From contig BCIX01000001.1 of the NCBI GenBank assembly GCA_001600095.1, forward strand, positions 2,563,863 through 2,627,862: a stretch of DNA of 64,000 nt, given 5' to 3'. A program made the position numbers and the translations under genes. Below are positions 2,000 through 29,164 of this stretch, one piece after another. The notes beneath the pieces were generated by a model. It did no database searches, was not told where the DNA came from, and worked only from the letters and a program-made list of their open reading frames with translations. Source of the stretch: Bullera alba. Its lineage: Eukaryota; Basidiomycota; Tremellomycetes; Tremellales; Bulleraceae. The number at the start of each line of letters is the position of its first letter. Within the stretch, counting starts at the first letter, position 1.

Positions 2000-4900
2000 C
2001 TACATCAACCACGGGGCCCATTTGCGATTCACATCGTCTACATCGCTCGCCGTGCAGTCGACCGCTGGCGCCTGACCATACGTAAATTGATCCACCGTCG
2101 AGTACGGGTTGAGCATCGGGTCGGATGCCGGTGGCATTGTTGGGTATGGGAAATTGGCGTTGAAAGTCGTGTCGACGGGAGCGCTGATCGCGTCTTTGGT
2201 GCTCGCCGCTGTCATCCGCTGGACGTACGCATCGACTTCTGCAGTGGTAGAATTAGTCAAATCGACTGGAGGCAGGTTGGGTATTCCCTGCATGTCGAAG
2301 TCGAAGAGGGAGGAGGTACCCAACGCGTTTAGCTGGTTGAAGGACAAGTTGCTGTCCGGTGGCGTGATGGCATTGGGGTTCGGCGGCGTGACTCCGGTCG
2401 ACGATGAATTGTGCAAAGGCGGGGTCGGGACCCTAGAAGGGATCTTGAAAGCTTTGAGGGGAGCGTTCGCTTTCTTCCGTGATACCTCGCAACAAGCTTC
2501 CCGTTCAATCCAATCAATCTCCTTCAAATCCTTGCCCCTAACGACAATCGAGTAGCCTTCCAAAAATTCGGCCATCATGAGGCCAAGGGTAAACCTCTGA
2601 CCATAACGTCGAAGCACTATGCAGCATCATCAGTAAACCTTCGTACGCCATCTTTGATCTCGACACACCGTTACAGAACACCGATACGTCAGACTCGTGC
2701 TGAAGGGCAGCGTCCATGTCGTAGACCTGCGCTGCACGCTCTCTTAGATGCAATGTCAGGCGACCAAGTGTATATAGCGAGCTAGGAGGTGGATCAGCTT
2801 GCTTCCTGCGTCCCTGTGAGCTAGCGACTTACAAGACGAACGAGGCGCTCATGATCGAGGTCACGTCGAGGTTACTGGGTATGCAATGAACCAGAGCCGT
2901 GGCACCGAGGACCGCTTTCTTCAGTATGTCGACGCATGGTGCCGTGGAATTGGAAAATTCCATGAATGGCTCGTGTATTATGCCCAAAGCGATATAAGGC
3001 ATGAGGTGCGCCAGCTACGACGGAGCCGTTAGCCTCGACAGAGTCTGCTCACGTGCGGGAATACTCACAAGAACATCGGCGTTCAGCTGTGAACCATCAG
3101 ACAACTTGTGCACACTCAGTTGAGCAGGTATGTTCCTCCTGCAAGGGGATAAATGTAAGCTCTGCAATATGTGCACACCCAGGTGCACTTACTGGAAAGT
3201 GTAGATGTCATTCATCAGCTGATGATATGGCGTCGAGGTCAACAGAAGTAGGTCGTCGCCTGGAACTGGATCCCTTTGGTTCCAATATCTCAGCATCCTG
3301 AAGGATTATGTCAGCCCGTGGCCCAACTTAAGAACGACTGACTGACCTTGCACTTCTGCTGATCAGTGTCGATGCTGCGAAAGGGTCAATGGAACGTTTT
3401 TAACGCACCGTGGCCCACTCACCTTTGCACGATAGGGTGAAGGCGCTGATGACGGGGTGCCTGCAGTCGGGTCAGCCAGCTGTGATCGATCAATGCCAGC
3501 GCTGTATGACGTACTCTATCAAGGCTCCTGCACTCCTCGCGGTCTGCGGGTTTTCTTCGATGTAATCGTTCTATGCGAGTGAGCGCAGCTCACGAGCAAA
3601 AGTGGGCAAAGCTCACCTCGCCATTCGTATCATTCCACTTGGCTGGGAAGGCACACCAGACTTCATCCAGCTCCATCGTCCCGTTCCAAAACGAGTTGAT
3701 CGAGAAATTGGCGTCCAGCATAAAGGTTAGCCAAACCGTGGCCAATCTCTCTTCTCTCTGTATAGGCGTGGCGGGAGCTTGTAGCATTGGATCTTTGAAG
3801 CGTTGTGGGCGATTCTTGTTTCCCAATTCCAGCGCTTTCACAAGTCGAGCCGGGGTACCAGCGAGAATCCAAGCCTGCATGGGGAATCCTCGGCCAAAGT
3901 AGAGGTCGCAGAGGATGATCTGCGGAGGTGTGAGCTGCGCGCGCGGATACTTAGGAATGTAACTCACACTGGCTTGACACATTTCGACGGTCTCTGTCCC
4001 AGGCCCGACGATGCAGGTCTGAGTGGCTAAGCGGATACTGCGTTGAGCCGCTTCACCCTGAGAAAGGCCAAAGTCCGGGATATCGTCGAGTGTGTCGTGG
4101 GTCTTCTTATACTCGGCGACCTGATTATCCGTTTCCTCTGGCTTGAACGTGTGGACCCATGCGGTATAACTTGCTGCATAGGCGCAGATGGCATGGAGAA
4201 GAGATGGGTGAGGGAACTTGTCTGAAGTCGGAGGCAGTCGGACTCGAGCCAGTAAGGAGGGTCGGTGGAGCATGTGAGGGAGTTGTGGTGCGTGTGCGAA
4301 GAAGGTTTCGATTCTGAGGACGTTCAGCTTCTGAGAATATCAGGGATAACGAAGCAACCTACAGGTGTTCGAGTAGGACTGAGATTGGTCAGCTCTGGTT
4401 GATAATCGCTCAGCAGCACACTCACAAGCAGAAGGTAGTTGCTTTGGCCAATTTGCGGGCACCATGAAGAGTCCTCCCAGATCCCAATCGTTGTTCACGT
4501 CGTTGGACACGGTTGTGCTCTTGTTGTTGTCCTGTACCCAGATCTGCTGGATGTCTGGTCGATTGATATGGCTCGATCCGAACGAATCCACCGTAATATT
4601 GGCGGCAGCGGATGACCCGCTTCCTTGGCGGTGGGATATACCGGCTGGAGATGAATACTGGGACCCGCCGATTGACGGTAGGTTACTGGTCGAGTTGGAG
4701 TCGGCGGGCGTCAACCCAGCCAAGCGTCGTTCGAGTTCCGCTATAATTGTGGAGATTAGGTTCTCGATTCCTGCATTGCCAACAGTACCTACCAATCCTG
4801 GCCAGTAAAAGATCCTTCTCCTCATCGCGTCGGATCTCTTTCTCCCGCTCCAAATTTCGACTGGAGCCTATTGCGCTCTTTGGCCCTTTCTTCTCTGAGA

Positions 4901-5294
4901 CCCGTTTGATGGCATCCTGTCCACCCTTCTTCTTCGTCGCTCCACTATCGTGCGAGTCACTGCGCGGAGCTTGCTGGACATGAGACGTTGTTGGTGACTC
5001 GTCATCGGAAGGCGGAGGCGTGTCAGTGTCCGCATATGTACAGCTGCATCGCGGTGGAGCGACATTGTTTCGGTGAGCTGACCGAAGTGCATGAGCATGA
5101 GAACGGAGGCAAGGCGAGCACACGGGCTTGATCTGAAGAGAGATTAGCGAAGTGAAGGATTCTCTTCCATCCGTATCTCGACTCACCGCATCGCACTTGA
5201 CTTTTCGTTTCTTGCATTGCAGACACGCATGATTTCGCTTGAGTGGCGCGAGAGAGTCGTCGTCGAGAATGTTATCAGCGAAAGAGTCGCTCAT
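2000..5294 (-). CDS. Zn2Cys6 fungal transcription factor
   Basis: The gene reads right to left from ATG at 5294-5292. Exon 1 (5294-5187) and exon 2 (5132-4793) encode a zinc cluster starting HACLQCKKRKVKCD, then CSPC, then a last cysteine pair CSC about 20 residues later; the loop before the sixth cysteine is much longer than the usual 6-8. Exon 3 is 4740-4426, exon 4 a 16-nt microexon 4378-4363, exon 5 4313-3968, exon 6 3919-3617, followed by several more exons to the stop at 2000. Exon 5 opens the fungal-specific regulatory domain (LIETFFAHAPQLPHMLHRPS, the usual hydrophobic HP-RPS signature of PF04082-type middle regions). The C-terminus is Asp/Pro/Thr-rich and may activate transcription. 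Target genes cannot be read from the sequence. The exons between about 3600 and 2600 were followed only roughly. Confidence 0.8.
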
Positions 5295-5822
5295 GATGCG
5301 ACCCGTTGGCGGTTGTAGTGATTGCTGTAGGGCTGAAGGAGACGGTGTAGTGTCCTAGTATACGATTCCCACAGCGCTGTGGATGGCTTTGAGGTGGTCT
5401 ACTATCGCCTGCCGAGGCTCCGAGGACGCTTTGTCAGTGATTTCTATGAGCCGAATTCAAAGGAGCGGGGCGGAGATGATAGAGCGATTGGAACAGAACA
5501 ACAGCCTAGGGGAAAACTCGGACGATGGCCGACGGCCTCGATTACACGTTGTATCATTGCCGCTTTGGGCAAGTGTGCAATCGCTCGTCAACCAGGATCG
5601 TAGATCTGGCTCTCTACATAGCTCATCCTGGCTCATCTACAATCTAAGCATGTTCAGCTCGCCTCGTCTCAAACAGGTCCACCCACCTCAACTGGACAAC
5701 AGCTTCCGAGCTACCGCACTGCCCAGATGCTCGAGTAATCTCTATGGACCACGTTGATCCCAATTGAGTTTACACGAATCACTTAGCTCAAGCTCAGCTT
5801 CGGAGCTGAGAAGCACTGGAGC
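5295..5822. other. Divergent intergenic region, 528 bp
   Basis: This lies between the Zn2Cys6 factor (minus) and the PIG-L gene (plus) and must carry both promoters. I see no convincing ORF, tRNA or TATA box in it; ORFs across it lack coding character. Confidence 0.5.
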
Positions 5823-9877: not shown

Positions 9878-12533
9878 ATGGCCGTGAGTGGTAGTGGAAG
9901 TGGAATGTCCCAAAGTATTTACACGCTGACGCTCCTTCGCTAGAGTGTCGTCGGTATTGATCTCGGTAACCTCAACTCGAAGATTGGTGTTGCCAGACAC
10001 AGAGGAATTGATATCATCGTCAACGAGGTCTCCAACAGAGCCACCCCGTGAGTTAAAGCATCAGTAGCCCACCATCCCTTTGTCCTGAAGTCAAGTCTGA
10101 GAATCTGTTGCTCATACCCTTCACTTAGCTCTTTGATCTCTTTCACTCCACGTCAGCGACACATTGGAGAGGCTGCCAAGACCGCCGAGACCTCAAACTT
10201 CAAGAACACTGTCGGATCGTTGAAGAGATTAGTTGGAAGGACACTGTCGGACCCGGAGGTTGAGGAGTTCGAGAAGAAGTTCATCAACGCCCAGCTAGTC
10301 GATGTCAACGGCAGCATCGGTGTCAAGGTGAGCGGATGGTGATTTACACCATAGTGATATGCTTACGCTCGCATCAGGTCAAATACCTTGGCGAGGATGC
10401 CGTCTTCTCGTACTCTCAGCTGGTCGGTGCCTACCTAGGCAAACTTAGGGACATCGCCTCGGCCGAGCTCAAGCAGGCCGTTTCCGACGTTGTCATCGCC
10501 GTCCCAGGATGGTACACCGACGTTCAGCGACGAGCTCTGCAGGACGCCGCCCAGATCGCCGGACTGAACCCCCTTCGACTGATCAACGACACCACGGCTG
10601 TCGCCCTCGGTTACGGTATCACCAAGGCTGATCTGCCCGAAAGCGCCGACGAGCCACGTCACGTCTGCTTTGTCGATGTTGGTCACTCGAACTACTCTGT
10701 TTCCGTTGTCGCCTTCTCCAAGGGCCAGTTGACCGTCAAGTCGACTGCCTACGACAGGAACTTTGGTGGACGAGACTTCGACTACGCTCTTGTCCAGCAC
10801 TTTGCCAAGGAATTCGACGCCAAATACAAGATCGACGTTCTGTCCTCGCCTAAAGCCGTCTTCCGACTGTCGGCCGGTTGTGAGCGACTTAAGAAGGTCC
10901 TTTCCGCCAACGCCGAGGCTCCGATCAACGTTGAGTCACTCATGAACGACGTCGACGCCAGCTCGTCGATGAACCGAGAGACTTTCGAGCAGCTCACCGA
11001 CCACCTGCTCAGCCGAGTCAACAACCCATTGCAAGAGGCCTTGTCGCGGGCCGGTCTCACTGTCGAACAGATCGACGCCGTCGAGCTTGTTGGTGGATGC
11101 ACCCGAATCCCCGCCATCAAGGAGCGAATCTCGGCCTTCTTCCCCGGAAAGACTCTCGGCTTCACCCTCAACCAGGACGAGGCTGTCGCCCGGGGTGCCA
11201 CTTTCGCTTGTGCTTCCCTCTCCCCAGTCTTCCGAGTTCGAGAGTTCGCCGTCCACGACCAAACCCCTTACCCTATCAAGGTCACCTGGGAGAAGGAGCC
11301 AGGAAACCCAGACGAGGACACCGAGCTGGTCGTCTTCCCTGCCGGAAACCCAATCCCATCGACAAAGATCCTCACCTTCTACCGACAAGGCCCCTTTGAG
11401 CTCGAGGCCAAGTACGACGAGTCGGCTACCTTGCCCAAGGGTCTCAACCCATGGATCGGCAAGTACACCATCAAGAACGTCGAGAAGCCAGCTTCCGGCG
11501 ACCTTGCTTGTGTCAAGGTCAAGGCCAGACTCAACCTGCACGGTATCATGAACTTCGAGAGCGCCTACATTGTCGAGGAGGTCGAGAAGGAGGAGACCGT
11601 TACCGTTGGTGAGGGTGAGGAGGCCAAGGAGGAGAAGAAGTTGGTCAAGAAGCTGCAGAGGAAGGGAGACTGCCCAACCGTCGGACAGTACGCCGCCGTC
11701 ACCAAAGACGCTCTCGACTCGATGACCGAGAAGGAGGGCAAGATGCACTCCGAGGACAAGCTCGTTCTCGAGACCGAGGTAAGTACAGCTGGTCGAAACA
11801 TTCCGGGTCAAATTGAGCTGACTGCTGACTGCTTTTGTAGGACCGAAAGAACGCTCTCGAGGAGTACGTCTACGACATGCGAGGCAAGCTCGAGGACCGA
11901 TACGCCGCGTACGTTCAGGAGTCTGAGAAGTCCGCTCTTCTCGCCGGTCTCTCCGAGGCCGAGGACTGGCTGTACTCTGAGGAGGGAGAGGATGCCACCA
12001 AGTCTGCCTACGTCAAGAAGCTGGACGCTCTCAAAGCCCTCGGCGACCCAATCGTCCTGAGATGGAGAGAGAACGACGAGCGACCAAAGGCTGCTTCCGC
12101 TCTCAGGGAGGCCCTCAACACCTACCTCAGCCAAGCGCAGGGTGGTGAGGAGAAGTACTCGCACATTGACGAGGCCGACAAGACCAAGGTCGTGAGTAGC
12201 TTGCCTTGATCTTTCACGACTAAAAACTGAGCTGACATTCGCTTTCAGATTGAGAAGTGCGCTACGACTCAGCAGTGGCTCGACGACAAACTCGCCCGAC
12301 AGGCCGAAAAGGCCAAGAACGTCAACCCAGTCATCACCTCTGACGAGATGAACAAGCGAAGGGAAGACGTCGTGTACACCTCTGCTGCCATCATGAACCG
12401 ACCCAAGCCCAGGCCAAAGGCCACCGAGACCCCAGCCAGCGGTCAGGAGACGCCCAAGGAGGAGCCAAAGAAGGATGACAAGATGGATGTCGAGCAGGAT
12501 GGACCCAGCATCGAGGAGATGGACGTTGACTAG
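9878..12533 (+). CDS. SSE1: Hsp110-family chaperone Sse1
   Basis: Six exons (9878-9883, 9944-10047, 10129-10327, 10378-11778, 11841-12191, 12249-12533) encode 781 residues, beginning [15 protein letters not shown], the Hsp110 version of the Hsp70 ATP-binding loop. Sse1 is the cytosolic nucleotide-exchange factor for Hsp70 and a holdase. Visible landmarks are the phosphate loops of the actin-like ATPase fold ([25 protein letters not shown]), then the beta-domain, an acidic Glu/Lys-rich loop ([12 protein letters not shown] region, the Hsp110 insertion), a helical C-terminal domain, and a last segment with Pro/Lys repeats ending SIEEMDVD. The first exon codes only two residues, a common arrangement in tremellomycetes. 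Codon use is strongly biased to C-ending codons, as expected for an abundant protein. No canonical heat-shock element was found upstream. Confidence 0.97.
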
Positions 12534-15311: not shown

Positions 15312-18300
15312 ATGCCGGAAGGCGATCGCACGAGGATGCACGATCTCGAGATCCCATCTCAATCGACATCGGCTGGCAGATCACATTCAAGACCACCAAT
15401 GGATCGCAGCGCCAACAGCTCTGGCAGTGTCGATGAACGCGAGACACCCAGACATCTCCCGGCTAATACACTGCCCGGCGAACGACCTGTTTGGGCATTT
15501 ACCCCTCCAACACGACCTGCGGCGGGACCCAGCTCACAGACTGGGGACCTAGAGCGACCTACTGGAGCGACCGGCCCCGCTCCGAAGAAGAAGGCAAGGC
15601 GATTGTCCCAAATCCCCGCCCAAACTACGCAAACGACTCAGAACGGTACCTCTCCCGCTCAGAACAAACAGCAATCAGCAACGACATCCAGAAAAGGTGC
15701 CACGGGAGAATCGAACGACTCGCCTCCAGCAGTGTTGACAAGAGAGAAGAAGCAGAAAGCTTGTGCGAACTGCAGGAGAGCAAAGCTCAAGTGTCTAGTC
15801 TCAAAGGGGGAAACGGATTGCGTACGATGTCAATCCCGTGGAGAACGCTGTATATTCTACACCAGATCTCATGTGAGTGTGGGCGCTCTTTGACATTGTC
15901 TTGTGCTGACTCTTGCCCAGGAGGAAGACTGGCAGCAGACTCTCACCGCCGACGTATACTCTGCCATCACGCACGTAGCAAGTCTGTCCAACGCTGTGCA
16001 CCACCTCCTCCATCACCTAGTCACGCAGAACGTCATACCCCCTCTGCCACAACCTTTGGATACTTTCGATCCGCCAGAGCGAAACATCGAGTTGCTGCAA
16101 GGCTGGGCAGCGGAGAGGAAGCAAGAATTGGGGGAGGAGAGCAAGAAGCGCAAGAAGACCGAGCCCCTCGCCGACCTACAGCAACTCGACGACAGTCATG
16201 ACGATTTGAGGAGGATGCCTGCTACTGAACCCCAGCGGAGAGAGTCCGCAGTCAACCCTCTCTCCCAATATGATTCCGAGCCGCCTGCGCGATTCGACGC
16301 TCGTCATAATTGGAATCATCCCTCGGATGGTCAGAGCAGTGGCGTTAGACAGAGCCGGAGTGAGAATCAAGGAGTTCGACAAAACGCCAACTCTTCCGGC
16401 TCACGATATCCCCTTTCTATCACTACACCTACTTCGCACTCTTTGGCGTCCAGATCCTCGGTCCCGCTTCTCGCCTCTTACGAGCGAGAAGACTCAAATC
16501 CATTCGGATCGTATTCTCAGCAACCCTCACGAATGCCACCACCTCCGAATCCGATGAGCGTACCTCTTCGGCAGCACTCGCTGTCCCACGAAGCTCCGAT
16601 CAGTGCCTTGCAGCAGACGACGCCAAATAGCTATAGCAGCTCGAGCCCTCTTTCGGCCGGACAACAGGCTTTCGGCTTGCCCCCGCCCTGGTTCTCCGAT
16701 AATACCAATGACTCTTCGCAAGTTCCTTCACAATCTTTACTTGATGAGAATTCGTTCAGGGCTCCCACTCTCGATGGACCGCCAACGGATGATGTCTTGC
16801 CGGTGACTTCGCAAGATCCAATGGCGATATTTGCCGAAATGCCAGAAGGTCAGGAGGATGTCGCGGGATCGGCCGACCCTCGAAAGACTATCATCAAGAA
16901 GAATATCTTGTCTGCTCCGGATGCCAAGGCTCTAGTTGAGTTGTAAGTACCGCGAGCTATACTCACGAGCACAACTCACAACAACGTAGCTTTCATTCTA
17001 GCCTGTCACCGCACTTGTTTGGATATCATTTGCAGCTCCGACAGTTCCCCTACCTGCCCAAAGGTCTGATGTCAATGACGCCTTTCATCCTCGCTGTGGA
17101 ATGCCTCTTGGCGGCAGAGAGGGTGCCTTCGCTGTATCACTATCACAGCAAATTGGCCGATGAAGTGCTGGATATGATTTTAACATCGCCCGCGGAATCT
17201 TGGCAAACGATCCAGAATATCCAGAGTCTGAAAGAGCAGCAGAAGGGATCCGCAGGAGAGATCAGCCAGGGCTCAACCACGCTGCTAGGAGAGCAAGTGC
17301 TAGGCAAGGCGTGGGCGACAATGGGAGACGACGAGTGGGATGACGAATTGGGTATCGGTCCTGAAGAGATTGTCGCAGCTTGCGCCCTGGCAACGTTCAT
17401 CGCCCAGAGGAAGCAAGCGAAACATATAGCCGACGTCGCATTCATGTGGGCAAGAGGATGGACTAAGGTGAGTATGACATTGGGATATTGCATATGGTGT
17501 GAGGCTGACCTCATCATGTAGTCCCTCATGCGCCAACAAGCACATCTCGAGACTAGAACGAGGACCTTTGCGGAGACTGTATTCCTCGTCACGCCACTTC
17601 GAGAGGCCAGCGAAGCGGACATGGCGAGAATCTGGCTCCTGTCCTATGTGAGTGTCTGCAAGGCGAAGAGACTGGAGTCCATACTCATCGACCGACCGTA
17701 GATCGCAGCAGGTCAAGAGGCAACTCACTCATCTGAAGCGAACACCAGCATACCGGAAGACCCTCGCAAATGGTGTCGGATCCTCCTGCTCGACACCGAT
17801 GCCCCCATCACCCCTCCCAACCCACACGACGTGCTGCTCGTCTATCACGCTAAACTACTGGCCTTGCTGCAGAATTGGCACAAGGATAGAGTCAACATTC
17901 TTCGTCCGTCTCTCGACATGCGGGCTACCGGCGGCGCTCCTCCCTCAAGCGAGCTACACAAACGCTTGGCCAGTAGGACGAACGGCAATCTTGACTGGTG
18001 GCAGGACGACCTTGAGCAGTATAGGCTTGGTGACGTGTGGACAGGGCAAATCCAGCTGGACTGGCTGTACGCTAAAGTCCTGGTGAACTCGGTTGCCTCC
18101 AAGAATCTGTGGGGAGGAGCGGACGAAGGGAGGTTGAGGGAGGCATCGAGGGGCCTGGCCGTCGACTCGGCAATGCAGCTGCTGCGCAGGTGTGCAGCTT
18201 GGACACCGAGGGAAGATCTTACGAATCTCCCCCACGCATACCTCCGTGTGAGTCGGCTATGCCGCCTCAAACGTGTGCAGAAAGCTGATATCCTCGTAGA

Positions 18301-18584
18301 TGATCGGCTTGGCGGTCAGTGAGGTGGTCGAAGCACTGCAAGAGAGCGAACAAGGGAGCTGCTCGCACGCCGCTTGTCCCGTCACCAGGAGTGAAGGTGG
18401 GTATGACTGAATCTCTGCTGTCAGATCCTCTACTGACTCACTGCGCTCAGCGTTGCCGATTCTTTTGACTGTTAGCGACATGTTGTCGCTAGGAGGACTG
18501 CAGGAAGGCCACGACTGCCGACGACTCGCTACATCAATGAGGCATCATGTCGGAAATTTCAGTCGGAGCACCGTTTACCGCTGA
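15312..18584 (+). CDS. Zn2Cys6 transcription factor of the GlcNAc cluster
   Basis: Seven exons (15312-15872, 15921-16942, 16990-17467, 17522-17647, 17702-18247, 18300-18396, 18451-18584) give 987 residues. The zinc cluster starts at about residue 154 (ACANCRRAKLKC), continues DCVRC and ends RGERC; the spacing C-x2-C-x6-C-x8-C-x2-C-x6-C, with eight residues in the middle loop, resembles Leu3/War1-like factors. A helical linker follows, then about 250 Ser/Pro/Gln-rich residues, then a helical regulatory domain beginning LVELFFHSSLSPHLFGYHL (fungal-specific TF domain). Its stop lies only 185 bp from the convergent deacetylase gene, and GlcNAc kinase and deaminase genes follow, so a role as pathway regulator is a reasonable inference from position alone. 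Ligand and target sites are not shown by the protein sequence. The first in-frame ATG was taken as start. Confidence 0.88.
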
Positions 18585-18769
18585 GCGTGTGTATGGATGT
18601 ATAACAAGAGCGGGAGACATCGCTGGGAGAAGGCTTATCTACATCCAAGATCTGAGAACGTGTCGCAAGGGAGCGTTGTGACCATGTGCGCCATGATGTG
18701 TTGATGCCGAGGCTGGACGGATGCATATATTGTCTACAACAAGCACAGACGGGACAATCTCACACCTCG

Positions 18770-20375
18770 CTATTCGACCCAGTTGCCGGCCGTTTTTGTA
18801 ACCCTCCAGACCTCTTCGCCCTTGACCCACGTCGACTTTACATTACCCTCCCAATCAAACACGCAAAGGTCGGCATGGTATCCGACCTTGAGCTGGCCTT
18901 TCGTCTGGGCGATCTGCCCGCCGAGTAATTGTGCCGGATTGTAAGTCGCAGTGATGAGAGCCGAGGATAAGGATATGCCTGTGAATTTGCACAGGTTGCG
19001 TATGCAATATGGCATGGGAGAGCACGATCCTGCAAGAGTGTCGGTGCCGTCAATGACGACTTTGTAGCCGTCTTTCCTAAACTTCACTCCAGGTCGCCAG
19101 TCGTGCACTCCATCGGGCAAGCTGGGGTCTAGGATTGATTGTGCTATAGGTCTGTCAGCTGGCTGCTCAGAGTGTATCATGAAGGATGCAGCAGAACAAG
19201 TACTCACCATCGGTAACCAAGACGCATCCCTCTTTGTGGGTAGCGTAGGCGATCCTGACGGTGTTTGGGTGTGAATGCAGGCCGTCCACTATCAGTCCGT
19301 AGTAAGGTCTCCAGACGGGATCTCCCAATAGGCCGATGACTCCAGGGTCTCGATGATGTATAGGCGGCATGGCACTGTTGACGTTTCGTCAGTTTATACC
19401 TCCGCAGGATGGAGCCACAGAGACATACTTGAACAAATGGGTGATCATTCTCGCACCTCTTCTCACAGCATCTGTGGCCACCTCCAGTGTTGCGTCGCTA
19501 AGGGTCATGTCAATGGGAACTCGGCGCCTGATCGAGGAATTACCTACCTATGACCAACGGATACCGTAACGCCTCTAGCAGTCATCTCCTCGATACACTC
19601 CATCACCCCTTCTACGTCCGGTGCCAGCGTAACCATTTTGACACCAGGTTGGTCGAGACCTTCTTTCCCATACACCTTCTCGATGATTTTAATAGGAGTA
19701 TCTTGGGTCGAGGGCCCCGCCTTGGCAGACATCAACAGGGTTTCGGAGTGAGCACCTCGTCGAAGTGGATGGAGGAAAGGTCCTTCGGCATGGTATCCAA
19801 GCACATGGGCGGATGATTTGGGTGACCTGGGGCCGAGCAGTCGTAGTAGCTACGGTAGCGGGTAAGCTGCAAGTCTACAGAATAGCGGTCAATGTGTGTC
19901 GCTCGACTACTCACCTTGGCATATAGCTCCTCTTTCTGCGTGATGATCGTTGGGACAAAACTGGTGCACCCCGTTTCGACTATACGTCTCGCGACCAGCT
20001 CCAGCCCAGTGAGATATCGCTCTTCCCCTCCGTCCGCATCTTCCAAACTGAGTTCCGAGAAATCTATCCCATAAGCTCCGTTGATCTGACAGTCGATCAG
20101 GCCGGGCGAGACCAAATCCCCCCCGAGGTCTACTGTCCGAACGGGCGCAGCACCCATGTCAAAGAAATGGGACTGTCCAGGAACGATCAGACCTGACTCG
20201 GCGGAGAAGTACAGATCCTGCTTCACCGTCTATGGGTACACGTCAGCATGGGTCTACCAGTCATGTGCACGGTGCACGGATTCCCGGATGGACAAAGGGG
20301 ATTCGAGAATGACACACTCACCGAGCCGTCTGGCATAGCCAGGTGACAATTGGTCAGACGAGTGACTTGAGCCAT
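18770..20375 (-). CDS. DAC1/nagA: N-acetylglucosamine-6-phosphate deacetylase
   Basis: Six exons read right to left (20375-20322, 20229-19915, 19849-19548, 19497-19429, 19374-19208, 19143-18770) encode 426 residues. The enzyme hydrolyses GlcNAc-6-P to glucosamine-6-P and acetate in the cytosol. Family marks in order: VSPGLIDCQINGAYG at the barrel entrance, the metal ligand Glu in GYHAEGPFL, His in TVSVGHSDAT, His in MITHLFNAMPP, the substrate loop GLIVDGLHSHP, the catalytic Asp in CVLVTDA, and the C-terminal YNPAQLLG plus DLCVFDWEG typical of the amidohydrolase beta-sandwich. Several of these motifs are split by introns, which supports the exon calls. The gene is divergent from the GlcNAc kinase (903 bp shared upstream region with a CGG-N8-CCG palindrome) and convergent with the Zn2Cys6 factor. 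Confidence 0.95.
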
Positions 20376-21278
20376 CGCGCAAGAATGTGTTCACAGGTGG
20401 TGTGTACACAAAAGCTGCTTTGCAGGTGAAGGAGGAGGGTGAAGAGAGCAGTACACGCCTTCTCAAGTGGTGTTGCGAACCAAATATGCTACAAGTGTCA
20501 TGTTCGTTGCCCCCACCTTTGATACCTCGCTCCCAAACCTCCATCGGCAAACACGCCGAGCGAGATCCGCCCAGCGTACAAGCGAGGATCATCCTTACCG
20601 GTCTTTCGGCGAGATTGACCCCAAAGCTAGATTGAGCCATGCAAGCGATCGAGCGTAAACGTAAGACACCGTCTGCATGGTCCACAACTGCAGCTCCAGC
20701 AGAGAGTAGCTCACTTACCGACCATTCAACGCTCGAGTCGCCGATCAAGCCGAGATAAGCTGCTAGCTGCCCAGTGACCCCCGCTCAAAGTCATCGACGC
20801 GGGGCAGCAGAGGGGCGAGAAGGGAATTGGCGTGAAAAACCCTAAACCAGTCCCAAGGGTATTACATGTCACCTCTACACTCATCTCGTCGGGAAGCTGT
20901 ATAACACCCCCATCTCTCCATCCGACTTCTACAACCTGTGAATATTTCGTCCCAAGGTCACTCGTCCATCCGCCAGACGGACCCTGTGAATAGTCACGCG
21001 CATATACCCAACCTCTGTATACACCGCCATCAAAATCGCGTCGACTTGGACTCGCAACCCAACATCAGCGACAACAATATCAACGTCACAGTCTACACGC
21101 GCCTTTGTGCTCGTCGGTCCTTTGTCCTCATTCTCGATCGTGCAATCTTGCAGATCATTCTTGTGGATCGACCTTCTGTCCAGTAAAGTCTCACGCACCC
21201 CACCCATACACCTACAGCACCCACCCACCCGACTCTCATCCTCAACAAGCCCAAGTCAGCTGTGCATACCTCCGCAAC
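20376..21278. other. Shared divergent promoter of deacetylase and GlcNAc kinase
   Basis: 903 bp between the two head-to-head GlcNAc genes. It contains the palindrome at 20545-20558 (listed separately). The kinase-proximal 350 bp are C/T/A-rich, as usual for tremellomycete leaders. No protein-coding signal of its own. Confidence 0.6.
20545..20558. promoter_or_regulatory. Candidate Zn2Cys6 site CGG-N8-CCG (copy 1)
   Basis: The sequence CGGCAAACACGCCG has inverted CGG/CCG triplets eight bases apart, flanked by T and A that extend the palindrome to TCGGC...GCCGA. Binuclear zinc factors commonly bind such paired triplets. It lies 170 bp upstream of the deacetylase ATG and 720 bp upstream of the kinase ATG. 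A copy with 12 of 14 identical bases is at 23082-23095. Confidence 0.45.
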
Positions 21279-22802
21279 ATGTCACGGCCGCTCACACCAC
21301 CTTCACCCTCGTCAAGCCCTCAACTGGTCCTCTGTGCCGATGGAGGCGGGTCAAAAGTCTGCGTTGTCATCAGAAGCTCTGATGGGGTCGAAGTAAGAGG
21401 AACTGCTGGTCCTTGTAATGTGTGAGCTGCTACGGCCTTGTTCTTGGGAGAGATAGTTGACTGACATCCCGTGTAGCCTCAGCGTCGGATATGACAATGC
21501 AGCCGAGGCGATCCTGCTCGCCACGTATAGAGCCCTGAGCCATCTGCCAAGCAGTCACTTCCCTTCTGGACTAAACATTCCCGACCTCGATGGCTTCGAT
21601 GAGTCAGCTGCGCCATCGCTAAGAGCGTCGACAGTGTCACTGCCTGCACTACAGAAGATGACTTCGACGTCAATCACTTCCGACCTCATTACACCCCAAC
21701 CTTCGCGCAACACTTCACCAGTACATGGTCCATATCTCCTGCCGCCGCTGAACCGGCCGGTCTTCCAGTATGTTTGGCTGGCATTGGCCGGTATCAGCAC
21801 CCCCGCGGACTGCGAGATGTTTGCGCCATACGCCGTGGAAAGGCTCAATGTCTCGGTGCAGTCTGTCAAGGTCACAAATGGTGAGTCACCTGTGTCCATC
21901 GACCTGGTCAGGAATACTGATCAGCCGTAGACGTGAACCTGCTCGCCGCCCCAGCTCTGGACGCAAGCAACATCAAGTATGTTGCCGCCGTGGTCTCGGG
22001 TACAGGGACTGTCGGTCGCACGATCCGTGTCGGACACTCTAGCAAGCAGGGCAAGCGGTCGCTACCACTTGAGGATGTAGGCGTATCGCGCGGCTGGGGC
22101 TTTACGTGAGTCGTTCGAGGCCTTCTGTCAACCCAGAGCGCGATCTGACCCTTCCTGCTCCATAGGTTATGCGACGAAGGATCAGCTTTCTGGCTTGGTC
22201 GGAGTGCTGTCCGACTCCTCCTGGCCCACACGGATCGTGAAGCCTCATCTTCCATCTTCTCCTCACCGCCTCCCCGACTTCTGCCTTTCCACGAAGACCT
22301 CATGATGTACTTCGGAGCGGATAAGCCAATGGACTTGATCGACCTCATGTCCTTCACTGGTGCTTGGATCGCGGACGGCTTTGGTCCTTCGGACATTGGA
22401 CGGATATCGGCCCGGAGAAACGCTCTGCTCGCTGGTTCAGCTCGGATAGTGCTTGAATGGGCTTTCCGGGAGCGAGGTGCCCAGAGGGGTGGTCTGGATG
22501 GACAGGCATTGGAGGACATTGAGGAATCGCATCGACAAGCCCTGGACATGGCGATCCAGTCGATACAGCCTCTGGTAACGTTGACCTTGAACCTACTTGG
22601 AGATCGGACGATTGTCAACCCTGGAGAAACGGTACTGGCGCTCGGAGGGGGATTGATGCAGTCCAAGGGGTTCAGGGAGCTCCTCCTCAAGGGTCTGGAA
22701 TCGCACGGTATCTCGGACTGGGGTATGGTCACGGTGATCGACGATGCCGCCGGAGTTGGAGCGCTGGGTTTGGCAAAGGTTCAGTTCCCAGACCATCCAT
22801 AG
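21279..22802 (+). CDS. N-acetylglucosamine kinase, NAGK/BadF type
   Basis: Four exons (21279-21421, 21477-21880, 21931-22105, 22166-22802) encode 452 residues of an actin-fold sugar kinase. Residues 21-26 are DGGGSK, the first phosphate loop. Then come a NDVNLLAAPAL segment (catalytic Asp region), VSGTGTVGRTI (second phosphate loop), the family hallmark GWGFTLCDEGSAFWLG equivalent to the animal GWGHMMGDEGSAYW, and ALGGGLMQSKGF near the C-terminus (adenosine loop). This is the BcrAD/BadFG ATPase family to which mammalian GlcNAc kinase belongs, not the hexokinase-like Hxk1/Nag5 used by Candida. It would phosphorylate GlcNAc to GlcNAc-6-P, the substrate of the neighbouring deacetylase. The protein is about 100 residues longer than human NAGK, with the extra length in a Ser/Pro-rich insert near residues 95-140. 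An upstream in-frame ORF start at 21105 was rejected. Confidence 0.88.
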
Positions 22803-23358
22803 GACTAGAGTGCTGTACTCTGCTCGTTCTCTACATACTCTTGGATTGTCACGTTGTATTCAGGCTCATAACTATCAAGCTTGCTGTATTGCTATGTCAT
22901 GCACTGTACTCGTACCTGTCGCACTGGACAACCTCGCTTGCACGTCTTCGAGCCTGCTACTGCATGAGCATCACTTGTCAACATCCCCAGCCGCAATGGC
23001 CCATGCTCGCATGCGGCCCGCAGTACCTCCCTCCTGCTTCGGCGACGAGTCCCGCTGTTCTCCCGGCGTCCTCCCTCTCTCCGGCGAAAACGCCGATGCT
23101 GCGTTGGGCGTGACGTAAACGAGCTCAGTGCCGGGGGGGGTCCATGTCCAAGATGGGCCCAAAGGGAAAAGTGGACATTTGGCCGAAGTATTCGAGAAGA
23201 AAGGAGAGGTATCAACGTCCTTCAACTGTCTTCGAAGGCCTTCGATATAGCCCCACCTCGCATCGCTTTGCTACTATTCTTACTCATACACACACCACCT
23301 CGGTCACACACAGATCGCCCCATTACACACACCCGAATCACCGATATCCCAACTCGAA
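22803..23358. other. Intergenic region and deaminase promoter, 556 bp
   Basis: Between the GlcNAc kinase and the deaminase genes, same strand. It includes the second copy of the CGG-N8-CCG palindrome (23082-23095), a G8 run at about 23132-23139 and a CA-rich leader before the deaminase ATG. Confidence 0.55.
23082..23095. promoter_or_regulatory. Candidate Zn2Cys6 site CGG-N8-CCG (copy 2)
   Basis: CGGCGAAAACGCCG: inverted triplets with an eight-base spacer, 264 bp upstream of the deaminase ATG. It differs from the copy between deacetylase and kinase only at spacer positions 5 and 8, giving the shared form CGGCRAAMACGCCG. Confidence 0.45.
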
Positions 23359-24762
23359 ATGCGTCTTACTATCAGAGACACCAAGACCCAAGTCGGTGAC
23401 TACGTGAGTCTTCCAGCGATGATCATTGCGAACGGCTTCCGAGGATGGATGCTGACTCCCTGATAATCTGGCAGATCGCAGAGTACATTGTCAAGAGGAT
23501 TAACTCGTTCAAGCCAAAGCCCGAACACCCACATTTTGTCCTTGGGCTCCCGACCGGGTCCAGTCCACTGCCCGTGTACAAGAAGCTCGTGGAGCTGCAC
23601 AAGGCTGGCAAAGTCTCTTTCAAGGTGAGCCGGTACTTTCATGGTACCTTTTAGTGCAGCAGCTGATAGATCGTCGCTTCGCAGGATGTGATAACCTGTA
23701 AGTGATAGCCGCAACGTACGACAAGATAGCAAAGCGCTGATCTCGGTACCCTTTTTCTTCGTACTTGCAGTCAACATGGTGAGTGCTGAAGACCTCCTCT
23801 GAGGAGATGGGATATGATCTGACAGCGCCTGGCAGGATGAATACGTCGGCATCCCCCGTGATCACCCAGAATCATACCACACTTTCATGTTCACCAACTT
23901 CTTCTCCCACGTGGACATCAAGTGAGCCAGAGTTTCGTGGTCAATTGCGGGAGAGAGATAGCGCTAACACCCGGATCTTAGCCCTCAGAACACCCATATC
24001 CTGGATGGCGAGGCAGAGGACCTGTACAAGGAATGCGAGGACTATGAGGCTGCTATCAAGGCGGCTGGCGGAATCGACCTTTTCCTCGGCGGTATCGGAG
24101 CGGGTGAGTTGAGTTGCTCCTCAAATGGACTCCTGCTGATGCCTGATCCTTATCGCAGACGGACACATTGCTTTCAACGAGGTGAGAAGAATGAGCTTCC
24201 CCCCTCAAGGCTGGTACTGACGATCTCGGCCCCGTTTAGCCTGGATCGTCACTCACCTCGAGAACACGTATCAAGACACTAGCGTACGAGACCATCTTGG
24301 ACAACTGCCGATTCTTCAACAACGATCTCGCCGCTGTGCCTCGTATGGCTCTCACCGTCGGCGTGCAGACTGTCATGGACGCTCGAGAGGTCGTGTTGGT
24401 AGTCACTGGTCAGAACAAGGCATTGGCTCTGAGCCAGATGATCGAGGGCGGAGTCAACCACATGGTCAGTCGAATGGTATGTCAACCCCTGAGTCGACAC
24501 TGACGATCCCGCTTAGGTCACGGCGAGCGCTTTGCAGACGCATCCTTGGGCTCTCATCGTCTGCGAGTGAGTATTAATCGCGAAGATATGATCAGAAGCA
24601 ATACTGACCACCGAGCTACTTAGTGAGGACGCTACAAACGAGCTTCGCGTCAAGACTGTCAAATACTTCAAATCGATCGAAAAGGTCCAGGACGAGGTCG
24701 AAGCAAAGTACGGTCCAGTCGCATCGATACGACTTGGACTAGGACGAGCGAGTGCTGCTTGA
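23359..24762 (+). CDS. NAG1/nagB: Glucosamine-6-phosphate deaminase
   Basis: Ten exons (23359-23403, 23475-23624, 23685-23697, 23771-23778, 23836-23921, 23982-24103, 24159-24181, 24240-24464, 24517-24566, 24624-24762) encode 286 residues, the usual length. The enzyme converts glucosamine-6-P to fructose-6-P and ammonia, the last step of GlcNAc catabolism. Motifs: [17 protein letters not shown] (phosphate loop), FNMDEYVGI with the catalytic Asp, HPESYHTFM, the active-site loop [18 protein letters not shown] with the catalytic His, and [15 protein letters not shown] near the C-terminus. Exons 3 and 4 are only 13 and 8 nt, and together spell the DVITFNM part of the active site, so they must be included for function. 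It is convergent with the Crk1 kinase gene (224 bp between stops). Confidence 0.95.
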
Positions 24763-24985: not shown

Positions 24986-27900
24986 CTATCTCTGATGTTG
25001 GGCGTGCGAGTCGGCGACTCGAGCAATGTCCGAGAACGGGGGCAGGGTTGGTTGTTGGGCATGGCGACCTTGCTCTGCAGGAGGCTAGCGTTGGCAGTCA
25101 GCACAAGGTCACGACATAGATAGTCTTACTCACCACCTTGAACATGGGGTTGATATTTCCATTATACTGCTGATGATCTGGCTGTGGAGACGACTGTCCA
25201 TCCTCCCAATCCCTTATGCTTGGCAGCATTGTCCCATTCCTCCCGATACCACCGCCATGCGCTACTGCTATACCCTTTGGATGTCCATAGGGACTCGTCG
25301 GAGCACTGCCCTGTCCGACTTTTGCGGCGAATTGCGCGGCTCCATGCGTCGGCACTGGCGGGATCTGCTGCGGCGACATGGATTGATGCAACGAGGTCTG
25401 GGATGATCCCGCCACATTGGCATGAGCCTTGAAGTCTCGGGCGAGCTGCGACTCTAAAGACGGGTTGGACAATGATGCCAGTCGAGATGGTTGCAGAGCG
25501 TGGTGATGACGAGACGAGTTGGATGGCGGTCGACGAGTGACCAATGGGTCTTTCGATGCTTGACGAGGGATGGTCATATCCGGGAAATCTATCCGTCCTC
25601 GCCTTGGACCGGGACTGAACATGATTGATCAGCTCGCATTCAGACAATAGATGCCCTTAATTTCACTCACTCGCTGTCAATCGTTCCAATTGTCAAGACA
25701 CTCCTGCTCCGCATTGAGTTGTGTCCGAAGCTCGACATGGAGTGATCATCATCTTCGTCCCTCCGTCTGGCTTTATGACGGCCAATACTGTTCATTCCCG
25801 ATTCGATCCCGTACTGCTGGTCCGAAGAGAGCGGAAGCTGTGGCTGCGAGCGGGAATTGCCATACGAGTGAAGCGAGTGTTTGTCCGCAGTGTTCTTGGA
25901 TCGCTGGCTGTCGTACGTCCGGATCGAAGTTGCAGACTGACTGGCGCCGAGCATGCCATGGATGGACCTGGTCGACGTGCCCTCATCCATCGGACGATGT
26001 CTCGACCCTTGTGCTTGCTCATCCACAGCCATCTGATTCGAAGATTGGTCGTAATGCGACGGAGCATAAGACGAAGGTGGTGGTTGGCTTACCTGAGGCT
26101 TTCGAGCCTGAGGCTCCGGGTCCATTGTGAATCCAGATAAAGCCTCGATATTCGTAGCGTCTGACTTGCCAGTCTGCGCAGAGACGATTTGCTGTCGTTT
26201 CAACATGACCGCCCTAGCTCGTTCCTTTTGTACCCTCGCAGCGGCTTCTCGCTTCATCTTCTCGGCCTCTCTCTTGGCCTTTTCCGCCTCCTTCTTTGCC
26301 AACTTTGGATCGGCGTTGACGCGAGCTGCAGATGCATCGTCGATGGGAGTCGTGGGCGAGAGCATGCTGCTCGACATAGCAGGTGCGTTTCCAGACTGAG
26401 TACGCTTGAGCGAGCTTGACGATCCGCCAGAGTATCCAGTATGATCGGCCGGCGAGATTGGCGACAAGGAGACTGTACTGCCCTTGTCGCCGCCTCCGCC
26501 GAAGACACTCGACAAACCCCACTTCTTCTTCTTGCCGATAGTGAGCGAGGCCAGTTTACCAGTATTGCTGGGAAGTGGTTGGGCCGTGGCGTCTCTGGTT
26601 GGCTCGATGGGAGGTGGGATGACGACTTGGTTTGCCGCGGGCTGTCTAGGCGTGCCGTCCTCGTAGCTCTGAATCTGCTGTTGTTGCTGAACGTAATTGG
26701 CGACCTTGCTCTGACTGCGCATATGGGCGATCTGGGCTTGTTGGGCAAGACTGAATTGGCCATAGGACGAATTCTGACCGGAATTCGATTGGCCGTCATA
26801 TGGCACCTCTGAGCCTGTTGACTGTCGGGTCGTATTATCACTCCATTCTCGAGCGCGCGCGACCTGGACATTGGGCTGTACTGGAGCTGGCTGCTGTCCT
26901 GCTTCTTGGATTGGTTTCGCCAATGGCCTATTGCCGTACGAGTGGAGGTCTTCTGTCGGCAGGTCGAGCTCTCGCAACTGGTTGACCAGAGCAGATGCCT
27001 CGTACCGCTCAAAGTCGGTGGCTTGGGTCGGGAAGATGACTCGCGACTGCGACATGTCGGGCATTCCGACTGGAGGCGGTAGTGTTCGCATGTCGCCATT
27101 GGCGAACGCGGGCCTCGTCTCGTGGTGCGAATGGCTTGGAGGTACCGCTCGTGGAGGCGCCGTGAGCTCTGGCTGTGGCTTGGGCATCGATCCCGGTTCC
27201 GGCTGTCCATGAGAGAATGGCACTCGGGGCAGAGGCGGCGTCCGTTGTAGGTGAGGTAGTGTTTCGTGAAAGTAAGCATGTTGGACACATTGGGCCGAGG
27301 TCATCCTGTACTTTGGGTTGTAGAGAAGCAGGTCGCCAATGCAGTCGATCAGGGATTGCGGTACATTCTCATTGAAGAGCGATCTGAAGTTGACTGGTTT
27401 CCGCTGATCCCAGTGTCAGCTCGCGCCATGTCCACCGGTAAACACTGAGCTCACCTTTGGAAACGAGAAGCCGACCTTCTTGGCCAGTATAATTCCGCTG
27501 TTCCAGCTACCTCCACCGATCGTCCTTCCTCTCTCGTCGACTCCGTAATTGGGCGAAGGGTCTCCGAGTGTGTCGGTGATTCTGTAGACCTGGTCGATCT
27601 CACTCACACCGGGAAATAGGGGTTTGAGATTTAGCATCTCGGCTAGGATCGTACCCAAAGCCCACATGTCCACTGGTGCTCCGTATTCCGTTGACCGCAG
27701 CAGTACTTCGGGAGCTCGGTACCATCTTGTCGAGACGTACTCGGTATAAGGCGGTTTCGAGGTAATTGCTCTTGCCAAACCGAAATCCGCCAACTTGACG
27801 ATGACCGAAACGTCCTTTTCATACTTCAATTGCTGGGGATCGTAATTGCCGTCCGCGCTCGACGATCTCGCAGAGTTGATGTATGCCAAAGCCTCGGCAT

Positions 27901-29164
27901 TCAGGTAATCCGCCAGTCCAGTTGTTGTGACGAGCAAGTTCTCTGGTTTCATGTCTCGGTGAAAGTATCCATGGCGATGAATGTGGTCGAGACCGGTGGA
28001 TATTTGGTGAAAGCAGGAAGCTATCAGTCCTGCTGCTAGCGGCCTTCCTCGACGTGACTTTGTGAGCTGGTACAGGTTGCCCTCCATACACTCGAAGACG
28101 AAATATAGCTCTCTCGATTTGGGCGAAATGAATGCGTCGTACAGGGGGATGATGGCGGGATGTTGAGGTATACGGCTCAGCGACTAGCGAATAATAGTTA
28201 GTTTATCTGTGATGTTCAGGAAGGGCATCTTGCTCACGTAAATCTCTCCTAGATTCTTCGCCTGACTCCAGCCGCCTTCCCATACCCTCTTCATCCTCTT
28301 CAACGCAACCAATCTCTTTCCTGACCATTCCGGACGCGCTCCTGCGCCACACTGCATCGCTGATAGCAGTGTTCCCGATTTGACAGGCGAGTGCCAGTCG
28401 CACAGCCATACTGTGCCGAAAGATCCGTCTCCGAGCACTTTCAATTCTGTATACCGACGCTCCCCAACTTTGATTAGGAAACGTCAGAATATTGCCTCGG
28501 GGCCAGTCCCAGTTTGACACGACTCACAGGGATCTTCAGTTCCGATTCTTCCGTCACCTTCATCCACGGCCATCCTTTCCATCCCGTCCATCATGACCTG
28601 CTCGCCCATCGCTGTTTGCCTCCCCGGTTGATGCTGTCCTCTCGCCGGGCTATGCTCCGCGGAAACTCTGTCATGTCCTCTAACCCGCTCTGCCGAGTCC
28701 CCCGCTACGCTGACTGGCGAGTGGAGATTGGGTGTCCGGCGGTACGATGAAGGACCTGCCACTGGCTGAGGTGAGCGATGGTCGTACATCCCGTTTGATT
28801 GCCCGTTCGCTTTTGAGGGAGAGTAGTTGTTCTGGGATGTAGTGTTCGAATGTGAAGGCGAGGGTTGATGGTAGACTTGTTGCCGTTGAGGCGAGTATGT
28901 CGAATGTGGATCTGAGACTTGTTGTTGTTGTTGATATTGTTGCTGTTGTCGCTGGTGATGTTGGTGATACTGCTGCTGCTGCTGCAGGTCGAAGGGGGAT
29001 CCTCCAGATGTCGGGGTAGGTAGGTATGAGGATTGTGATGAATCATCATTCGGAGACTTTGCATACGCCTTGGTGATTGACGAGGAAGGTCCTGCTGTGT
29101 ACTGGTTATACAGCGGCTCTGGCATGGTGTAGCTTGTCGAGTGAGGGACGACTGCGATCGCCAT
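24986..29164 (-). CDS. Crk1/Ime2-like CMGC (RCK-family) protein kinase
   Basis: Six exons right to left (29164-28528, 28467-28238, 28183-27455, 27403-25671, 25614-25134, 25084-24986) encode 1302 residues. The kinase domain starts near residue 220: GDGSFGTVW glycine loop, VALKRM lysine, [12 protein letters not shown] catalytic loop at about 363, KLADFGLAR at about 422 and a TEY activation motif followed by [10 protein letters not shown], the dual-phosphorylation loop of MAK/ICK/Ime2 kinases. An insert of about 25 residues (after [13 protein letters not shown]) separates the catalytic loop and the DFG. The N-terminal 210 residues are disordered with a Gln/His tract; the C-terminal 750 residues are also low complexity, with a short basic coiled coil. 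Crk1 in smut and Cryptococcus species acts in mating and morphogenesis. The final exon (ending [13 protein letters not shown]...) was chosen because the continuous frame beyond 25134 loses coding character. Confidence 0.88.
28918..28987. repeat. CAG/CAA microsatellite coding Gln/His tract
   Basis: On the plus strand this is a run of GTT/CTG triplets, including five consecutive CTG units at 28971-28986. On the coding (minus) strand it encodes about 24 mostly Gln residues interrupted by His, Tyr and Arg, in the disordered N-terminus of the Crk1-like kinase. Mixed CAG/CAA use should limit slippage, except in the CTG5 core. Confidence 0.85.

Follow-up and report, generated by a model that had tools for sequence, protein, structure and literature searches.

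A tremellomycete gene cluster for GlcNAc catabolism with a neighboring Zn2Cys6 protein as candidate activator

Introduction

GlcNAc sensing bears on fungal growth form and host interaction, and the GlcNAc regulators described in the excerpted text of the papers cited here (RON1/Rep1 and NGS1) are ascomycete proteins. In ascomycetes, control by RON1 and NGS1 is the established mechanism according to those excerpts (PMC4950302, PMC12176254). Is the pathway in a basidiomycete governed by a regulator of another kind, encoded beside the enzymes themselves? The question is raised by a four-gene locus in the window (the whole 64,000-nucleotide stretch of DNA that was analyzed), where a gene for a Zn2Cys6 protein adjoins genes for three predicted enzymes of GlcNAc catabolism. 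A literature search covering titles and abstract openings returned no Zn2Cys6 regulator of GlcNAc in basidiomycetes. The host fungus is a basidiomycete related to Cryptococcus.

Gene content of the locus

The original prediction had placed adjacent genes for a Zn2Cys6 factor, a deacetylase, a kinase, and a deaminase within 9.5 kb, and all four were found at that place (Table 1). Gene models were built by hand from the sequence, with 23 GT-AG introns of 47 to 92 bases, and the encoded proteins read open; at the nagB intron at 24465, an alternative donor would give four more residues, and the donor better fitting 1ne7 was chosen. The layout is compact, with gaps of 185, 903, and 556 bases between neighboring genes, the 903-base gap lying between the divergent nagA and kinase genes. 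The putative GlcNAc kinase, the deacetylase, and the deaminase are encoded by neighboring genes. Genome searches detected no close second copy of the factor, kinase, or deacetylase, and a 43% paralog of the deaminase; the PF01182 genome search missed the window's own nagB, which a protein search recovered.

Table 1. Positions of cluster genes, candidate sites, and the flanking marker gene in the window
Feature	Position	Strand	Remarks
Whole cluster	15312-24762		Four intact, intron-rich genes (factor, nagA, kinase, nagB)
Zn2Cys6 transcription factor, 987 aa, 7 exons	15312..18584	+	Candidate pathway activator
Factor exons	15312-15872, 15921-16942, 16990-17467, 17522-17647, 17702-18247, 18300-18396, 18451-18584	+	
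GlcNAc-6-P deacetylase nagA, 426 aa, 6 exons	18770..20375	-	PF01979; 7nut; TIGR00221
Candidate factor site CGGCAAACACGCCG	20545..20558	+	Divergent nagA/kinase promoter; predicted, picked post hoc
GlcNAc kinase, NAGK/MurK (BadF-like) kind, 452 aa, 4 exons	21279..22802	+	
Candidate factor site CGGCGAAAACGCCG	23082..23095	+	264 bases upstream of nagB ATG; predicted, picked post hoc
Glucosamine-6-phosphate deaminase (nagB/NAG1 type), 286 aa, 10 exons	23359..24762	+	1ne7; TIGR00502
Protein kinase gene outside the pathway, seen as parts of two or more open frames	25670..28183	-	Synteny marker (CRK1-like)

Homology strongly predicts the roles of two of the enzymes, whereas that of the kinase is suggested by its fold and its neighbors. 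NagA matched the deacetylase 7nut (E = 3.7e-82) and scored 225.2 bits against TIGR00221, slightly below the cut-off of 225.65; NagB matched the glucosamine-6-phosphate isomerase 1ne7 (E = 1.4e-110) and exceeded the TIGR00502 cut-off (386.3 bits versus 236.9). The kinase is the weakest of the four identifications. It matched no Pfam family at E = 0.1 and reached E = 2e-10 against the NCBIfam NagK model, but with 40.6 bits versus a cut-off of 370. Several of its 53 homologs carry the UniRef name N-acetyl-D-glucosamine kinase, and 10 of the 53 are annotated with PF01869, which the window's own kinase did not match. MurK and human NAGK are matched by both the profile and the structure model of related proteins, with the family fold and the sugar and phosphate motifs present. 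The fold of this kinase family is that of NAGK/MurK, unlike the hexokinase-type GlcNAc kinases of ascomycetes. The fungal kinases differ from human NAGK (2ch5) and Clostridium MurK (8zo3) in having 17 to 20% identity to them and in poorly predicted insertions (residues 97 to 133 and 353 to 361 of homolog P0010).

This fold leaves the substrate unfixed, and the kinase could have a broader range than GlcNAc, accepting MurNAc as well as GlcNAc in the manner of MurK, for instance, with the locus serving bacterial cell wall or hexosamine recycling and not chitin use alone. We consider this improbable: the neighboring nagA and nagB are enough for GlcNAc, and no etherase is encoded among the four genes (the flanks were sampled only). 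The locus is read here as a GlcNAc catabolic cluster.

Comparison with known GlcNAc clusters

The same three enzymatic steps are encoded by adjacent genes in the NAG cluster of Candida albicans (HXK1/NAG5, DAC1/NAG2, and NAG1; PMC4950302), which, as excerpted, has a hexokinase-type kinase and no regulator gene named within it; the window differs in both respects. RON1-type ascomycete clusters, such as that of Trichoderma reesei (hxk3, dac1, dam1, ron1, and nag3/ngs1; PMC4950302, PMC12176254), likewise group kinase, deacetylase, and deaminase genes, and many of them include a gene for a regulator as well. In the excerpted accounts, however, that regulator is Ndt80-like and the kinase hexokinase-type, whereas the window has a Zn2Cys6 protein and a kinase of the NAGK/MurK kind, and its four genes include none of the GH3/NGS1 type. 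Neither the hexokinase-family GlcNAc kinase common to RON1-type and Candida clusters nor an Ndt80-like regulator gene occurs in the window's cluster, the regulator gene among the four being Zn2Cys6. The predicted difference from both ascomycete arrangements was borne out, with all three enzymes and a binuclear zinc factor encoded in the cluster.

Cryptococcus is closer. In C. neoformans/deneoformans, the pathway genes are NAG1 (CNAG_06098), NGT1 (CNAG_06186), DAC1 (CNAG_06190), and HXK3 (CNAG_06191) (PMC10218983, citing Ye 2022). The pathway is common to both fungi, and the DAC1-HXK3 pair, whose adjacency is already in print in the excerpted part of that paper, is matched here by adjacent nagA and kinase genes, HXK3 being a possible ortholog of the kinase. 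NAG1 lies about 90 locus numbers away, whereas the deaminase gene is within the block in the window, and the excerpted account names no factor where the window has its Zn2Cys6 neighbor. The C. neoformans homolog of the window's kinase (P0013, C360_06740) is 50% identical to it. CRK1, an Ime2 homolog, is CNAG_06193 in the excerpt of PMC9613880; CNAG_06192, a possible ortholog of the factor, did not appear in the literature searched.

The gene to the right of nagB encodes a protein kinase (PF00069, E = 3.1e-40 at 27419-28183). Its activation loop is of what we take to be the Ime2/MAK type, and it is probably an Ime2/MAK-type kinase, the subfamily being unsettled given that its best PDB matches are CDKL1 and CDKs. 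Because of this CRK1-like neighbor, the window's cluster and the Cryptococcus DAC1-HXK3 region probably represent one ancestral locus. The description of the cluster as independently arranged can therefore hold at most relative to ascomycetes; with respect to Cryptococcus it probably fails, given the clustering in print, in the excerpted text, and the suggested common locus.

The Zn2Cys6 factor and its linkage to the enzymes

The factor carries a six-cysteine binuclear cluster domain with the spacing C-X2-C-X6-C-X8-C-X2-C-X6-C, as read from the sequence (Zn_clus PF00172, 23.3 bits versus a cut-off of 21; E = 7.2e-5). A profile search found no match to the Fungal_trans middle homology region (PF04082). 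The structure model of a factor homolog, P0006, is helical at 315 to 733 (mean pLDDT of 66.7), and comparison of that model with the PDB returned nothing at E = 0.001 or better. The 19.4-Mb genome contains at least 42 Zn_clus stretches, a count that is too low because it missed the second Zn2Cys6 gene of the same window; from this count, itself too low, the chance of a Zn_clus gene lying within 5 kb of the enzymes is about 2%. Linkage in relatives is a stronger argument for the association than this estimate.

That linkage was judged from locus tags and contig sizes, not DNA, after homolog searches in which about 8,000 candidates sharing most words were scored. Nine species were comparable. 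Factor and kinase have consecutive locus tags in two (Cryptococcus depauperatus, L203_03255/L203_03256; Kwoniella dejecticola, I303_101325/I303_101324) and lie on one contig, by equal contig size, in three (Kockovaella, Naematelia, and Cutaneotrichosporon oleaginosum); two appear unlinked, and two could not be judged. In Cutaneotrichosporon cavernicola, factor and deacetylase tags indicate separate scaffolds; separate contigs carry the factor and the kinase of Tremellales sp. Uapishka_1. For Cryptococcus neoformans, C. gattii, C. amylolentus, and most Kwoniella, the kinase was found and the factor was not among the roughly 8,000 candidates scored; since scoring stopped at that number, absence of a species from the homolog lists proves nothing. 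The predicted conservation of the factor beside the enzymes thus applies to the kinase in C. depauperatus and K. dejecticola and appears to break down in C. cavernicola and Uapishka_1.

Such a pattern could also arise if the GlcNAc cluster is real and the Zn2Cys6 gene is a passenger, kept near the kinase by slow gene-order drift and regulating other things, with the enzymes under an unlinked regulator. Loss of linkage in C. cavernicola, and perhaps in Uapishka_1, fits this explanation, as does the presence of the factor family in Wallemia, for which neither kinase nor nagA was returned among the roughly 8,000 candidates scored. Against it, the factor adjoins the kinase in two genera despite a gene order unlike that of the window, where nagA separates the two, and Zn2Cys6 genes are sparse in the genome, by the count known to be too low. 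We regard a passenger as unlikely.

Candidate binding sites and transport

Two alike CGG-N8-CCG sites, a pattern selected after the fact, occur in the nagA/kinase and nagB promoters (Table 1), with distances from the first site of 170 bases to the nagA ATG and 721 bases to that of the kinase. The pair was equaled in 3 of 3,000 shuffles, and in 17 of 3,000 when the factor's own promoter, which has no such site, was added. Across the window, the pattern at up to three mismatches is no commoner than by chance (21 observed versus 16.0 expected; 15 of 100 shuffles reach 21). Genome-wide, CGGCNAANACGCCG has five copies versus one for the reversed control. Read by eye, none of the three near-exact copies outside the cluster is beside evident pathway genes: two fall within apparent coding sequence of formin-like and TBC-like proteins, and the third lies about 400 bases upstream of an apparent 5'-truncated permease fragment. 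For CGGCRAAMACGCCG, there were 4 exact matches, and 45 at up to one mismatch versus 24 for the control. A regulon defined by the motif was rejected, as none emerged from these genome searches. The failure to obtain a regulon favors a passenger gene, whereas the alike pair in two promoters speaks for a factor acting on the cluster.

No transporter gene lies beside the cluster among the 20 open frames of the window scanned; the only MFS gene among them, of the FucP/NagP kind (51928-53310), is 27 kb away. A genome search for MFS genes says little, as 9 of 206 candidates were scored and the window's own MFS gene was missing from the result. Ngt1 may be of the UNC-93 kind, and a genome search for UNC-93 gave one match (gene L024). 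As a co-regulated transporter this gene was rejected, the best consensus match around it having three mismatches; two CGG-N8-CCG pairs around it (3133 and 5776) are unlike the cluster sites.

Search for an ascomycete-type regulator

An Ndt80-like RON1 with an NGS1-like sensor, encoded elsewhere in the genome, could instead control the cluster and leave the Zn2Cys6 protein a minor role at most. That this mechanism operates in ascomycetes (PMC4950302 and PMC12176254, as excerpted) counts in its favor. The genome search for Ndt80 (PF05224, exons searched separately) gave no matches, but control genomes gave none either, so without a working control it does not establish absence. A GH3 search gave six matches at four loci, where the open frames (single frames, not whole genes) encode GH3 along with PA14 or Fn3-like domains but lack an acetyltransferase domain. 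With no Ndt80-like or NGS1-like gene among the four cluster genes as well, we find such control very improbable.

Discussion

We favor, with some confidence, the reading of this locus as a tremellomycete GlcNAc catabolic gene cluster whose neighboring Zn2Cys6 protein most likely activates the pathway. Clustering of pathway genes in a basidiomycete is not new, being in print for Cryptococcus in the excerpted text of PMC10218983; the novelty lies in an arrangement that is both complete and compact, and in a conserved Zn2Cys6 neighbor as candidate activator. In the pathway predicted by homology, the kinase converts GlcNAc to GlcNAc-6-phosphate, the deacetylase this product to glucosamine-6-phosphate and acetate, and the deaminase glucosamine-6-phosphate to fructose-6-phosphate and ammonium. 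Accumulation of GlcNAc, or of a phosphorylated product made from it, would be the trigger, upon which the factor would act via the pairs of CGG in the nagA/kinase and nagB promoters and turn on the three enzymes jointly, taking in this lineage the place of the Ndt80-like RON1 of ascomycetes. Activator role, inducer, and binding sites are all putative.

For Tremellomycetes at large, the chances seem even that GlcNAc catabolism runs through a dedicated, locus-encoded Zn2Cys6 activator and an NAGK-type first kinase, in contrast to RON1/NGS1 and a hexokinase-type kinase in ascomycetes, the pathway being kept while regulator and first enzyme differ between the phyla. A factor with no close second copy, whose gene shows linkage to pathway genes in several related fungi and for which two sites are proposed, makes the control of GlcNAc use in basidiomycetes testable. 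If the proposal is true, one catabolic pathway would differ between phyla in both the type of its kinase and the type of its regulator.

A four-gene cluster, very likely for GlcNAc catabolism

The original prediction described a compact GlcNAc-catabolic cluster with its own Zn2Cys6 regulator, and a cluster of four genes was indeed found in the proposed place and order (see table). Models built by hand with GT-AG introns gave all four genes an unbroken frame from ATG to stop, with spaces of 185, 903, and 556 bases from left to right. In all likelihood, the assignment of the cluster to GlcNAc catabolism is correct. Across the genome (19.4 Mb in seven contigs, the window on contig 1), matches to the kinase and nagA were confined to the cluster, and the conserved parts of the factor had no second close match (next best E 0.006). 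nagB has a paralog on contig 2: this deaminase-like gene (C2:1461386-1462189, locus L029; 43% identity) comprises short open frames containing GLPTGNTPIPVYREL and GLNEPGSGLNSRTRI.

Features of the cluster and the surrounding window
Feature	Position	Strand	Remark
Second Zn2Cys6-type factor gene	3593-5354	-	~10 kb left of cluster factor
Hsp70 gene	10264-12057	+	PF00012 E 1.3e-115; left of cluster
Zn2Cys6 factor gene	15312-18584	+	hand-built model
nagA	18770-20375	-	hand-built model
Candidate site CGGCAAACACGCCG	20545		nagA/kinase promoter; CGG-CCG pair
Kinase gene	21279-22802	+	hand-built model
Candidate site CGGCGAAAACGCCG	23082		nagB promoter; CGG-CCG pair
nagB	23359-24762	+	hand-built model
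MFS transporter gene, fucose permease kind	51928-53310	+	TIGR00885 E 3.9e-67, under cut-off
Helicase gene	56682-60495	+	dsrm, DEAD, Helicase_C, HA2 domains

The MFS gene, 27 kb from the cluster, is a possible GlcNAc transporter. It also matches the bacterial GlcNAc transporter NagP, less strongly (E 4.1e-27) and well below that model's cut-off. Elsewhere, a permease-like fragment (locus L021, C5:1325523-1335522) looks like a broken gene; by eye, its first half seems to be missing, and it lies beside unusual GC-rich sequence.

Linkage of the factor to the enzymes

A profile search found at least 42 Zn_clus stretches in the genome, a lower bound from which the second Zn2Cys6-type gene of the window was missing (Zn_clus start matched over 15 positions, under the cut-off; Fungal_trans match weak). 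Given this lower-bound count, chance alone would place a Zn2Cys6 gene no more than 5 kb from the enzymes with a probability of ~2%.

Among the candidates scored, the best-matching named relatives of the factor and kinase were in Kockovaella imperatae (56% and 55% identity, respectively, over aligned parts), pointing to a tremellomycete as the probable source. Nine species with a factor match plus a kinase or nagA match were compared for linkage, from names and contig sizes. Equal size was taken to mean one shared contig, and locus tags were treated as reflecting gene position; the search scored only candidates with most words in common. That the factor is kept beside the enzymes was borne out in part. 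Tags were consecutive in Cryptococcus depauperatus CBS 7841 (factor L203_03255, kinase L203_03256) and Kwoniella dejecticola (I303_101325, I303_101324), and the same contig was read for three species: Kockovaella (1,071,374 bases), Naematelia encephala (403,899), and Cutaneotrichosporon oleaginosum (2,699,508). Two species spoke against linkage, Cutaneotrichosporon cavernicola (factor tag 0409520 versus nagA tag 0505920) and Tremellales sp. Uapishka_1 (factor and kinase on separate contigs, both models partial). The verdict leaves out Tremella mesenterica, represented by two strains, and Kwoniella pini (kinase without a tag). In other Cryptococcus and Kwoniella species the kinase but not the factor was matched among the candidates scored, which does not imply absence. 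Wallemia carries the factor family at 28% identity (matches P0007 and P0008; a further match is P0009), and the family is therefore older than Tremellomycetes; neither kinase nor nagA was among its matches, again with only candidates sharing most words scored.

Candidate promoter sites

Four stretches between and before the cluster genes contained eight CGG-N(0-15)-CCG pairs. Two of these, CGGCAAACACGCCG and CGGCGAAAACGCCG, have equal spacing and 12 of 14 bases identical, and are candidate sites. An equally good pair arose in 3 of 3,000 dinucleotide shuffles of the nagA/kinase and nagB promoters, and in 17 of 3,000 once the factor's promoter was included, for a pattern picked after the sites had been seen. 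The same scan found no such site in the factor's own promoter. The consensus has four exact matches genome-wide, and no further copies of the pattern pointed to additional pathway genes.

Comparison with known GlcNAc loci

Clustering of the GlcNAc pathway in a basidiomycete is already published. In Cryptococcus neoformans, NAG1 (CNAG_06098), NGT1 (06186), DAC1 (06190), and HXK3 (06191) are described as co-expressed, with DAC1 adjoining HXK3 (PMC10218983, citing Ye et al. 2022). PMC5959073 assigns CNAG_06098 to both the deaminase and GlcNAc-6-P deacetylase, an apparent slip given DAC1 = CNAG_06190 in PMC10218983. The Ime2 homolog CRK1 carries the locus number CNAG_06193 (PMC9613880), and in B. 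alba a protein kinase gene lies right of nagB. CDKL1 and CDKs ranked first in a PDB search with this protein kinase. Its activation loop is presumably typical of the Ime2/MAK kind. We infer that the B. alba cluster and the Cryptococcus genes probably derive from one ancestral locus, with HXK3 the probable ortholog of the cluster kinase.

The ascomycete cluster is described as having a hexokinase-type kinase and often an Ndt80-like RON1 and a GH3 protein (PMC4950302), the latter since renamed NGS1 (PMC12176254), whereas the candidate regulator in B. alba is of the Zn2Cys6 type. An Ndt80 profile search of the genome, for which the control did not work, gave no match, and open frames at the four GH3 loci found contained no acetyltransferase domain. 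No Zn2Cys6 regulator of the GlcNAc pathway was found in the literature covered, with most subscription papers outside the search. Linkage in some relatives supports the Zn2Cys6 factor as a reasonable candidate for the regulator of this cluster.
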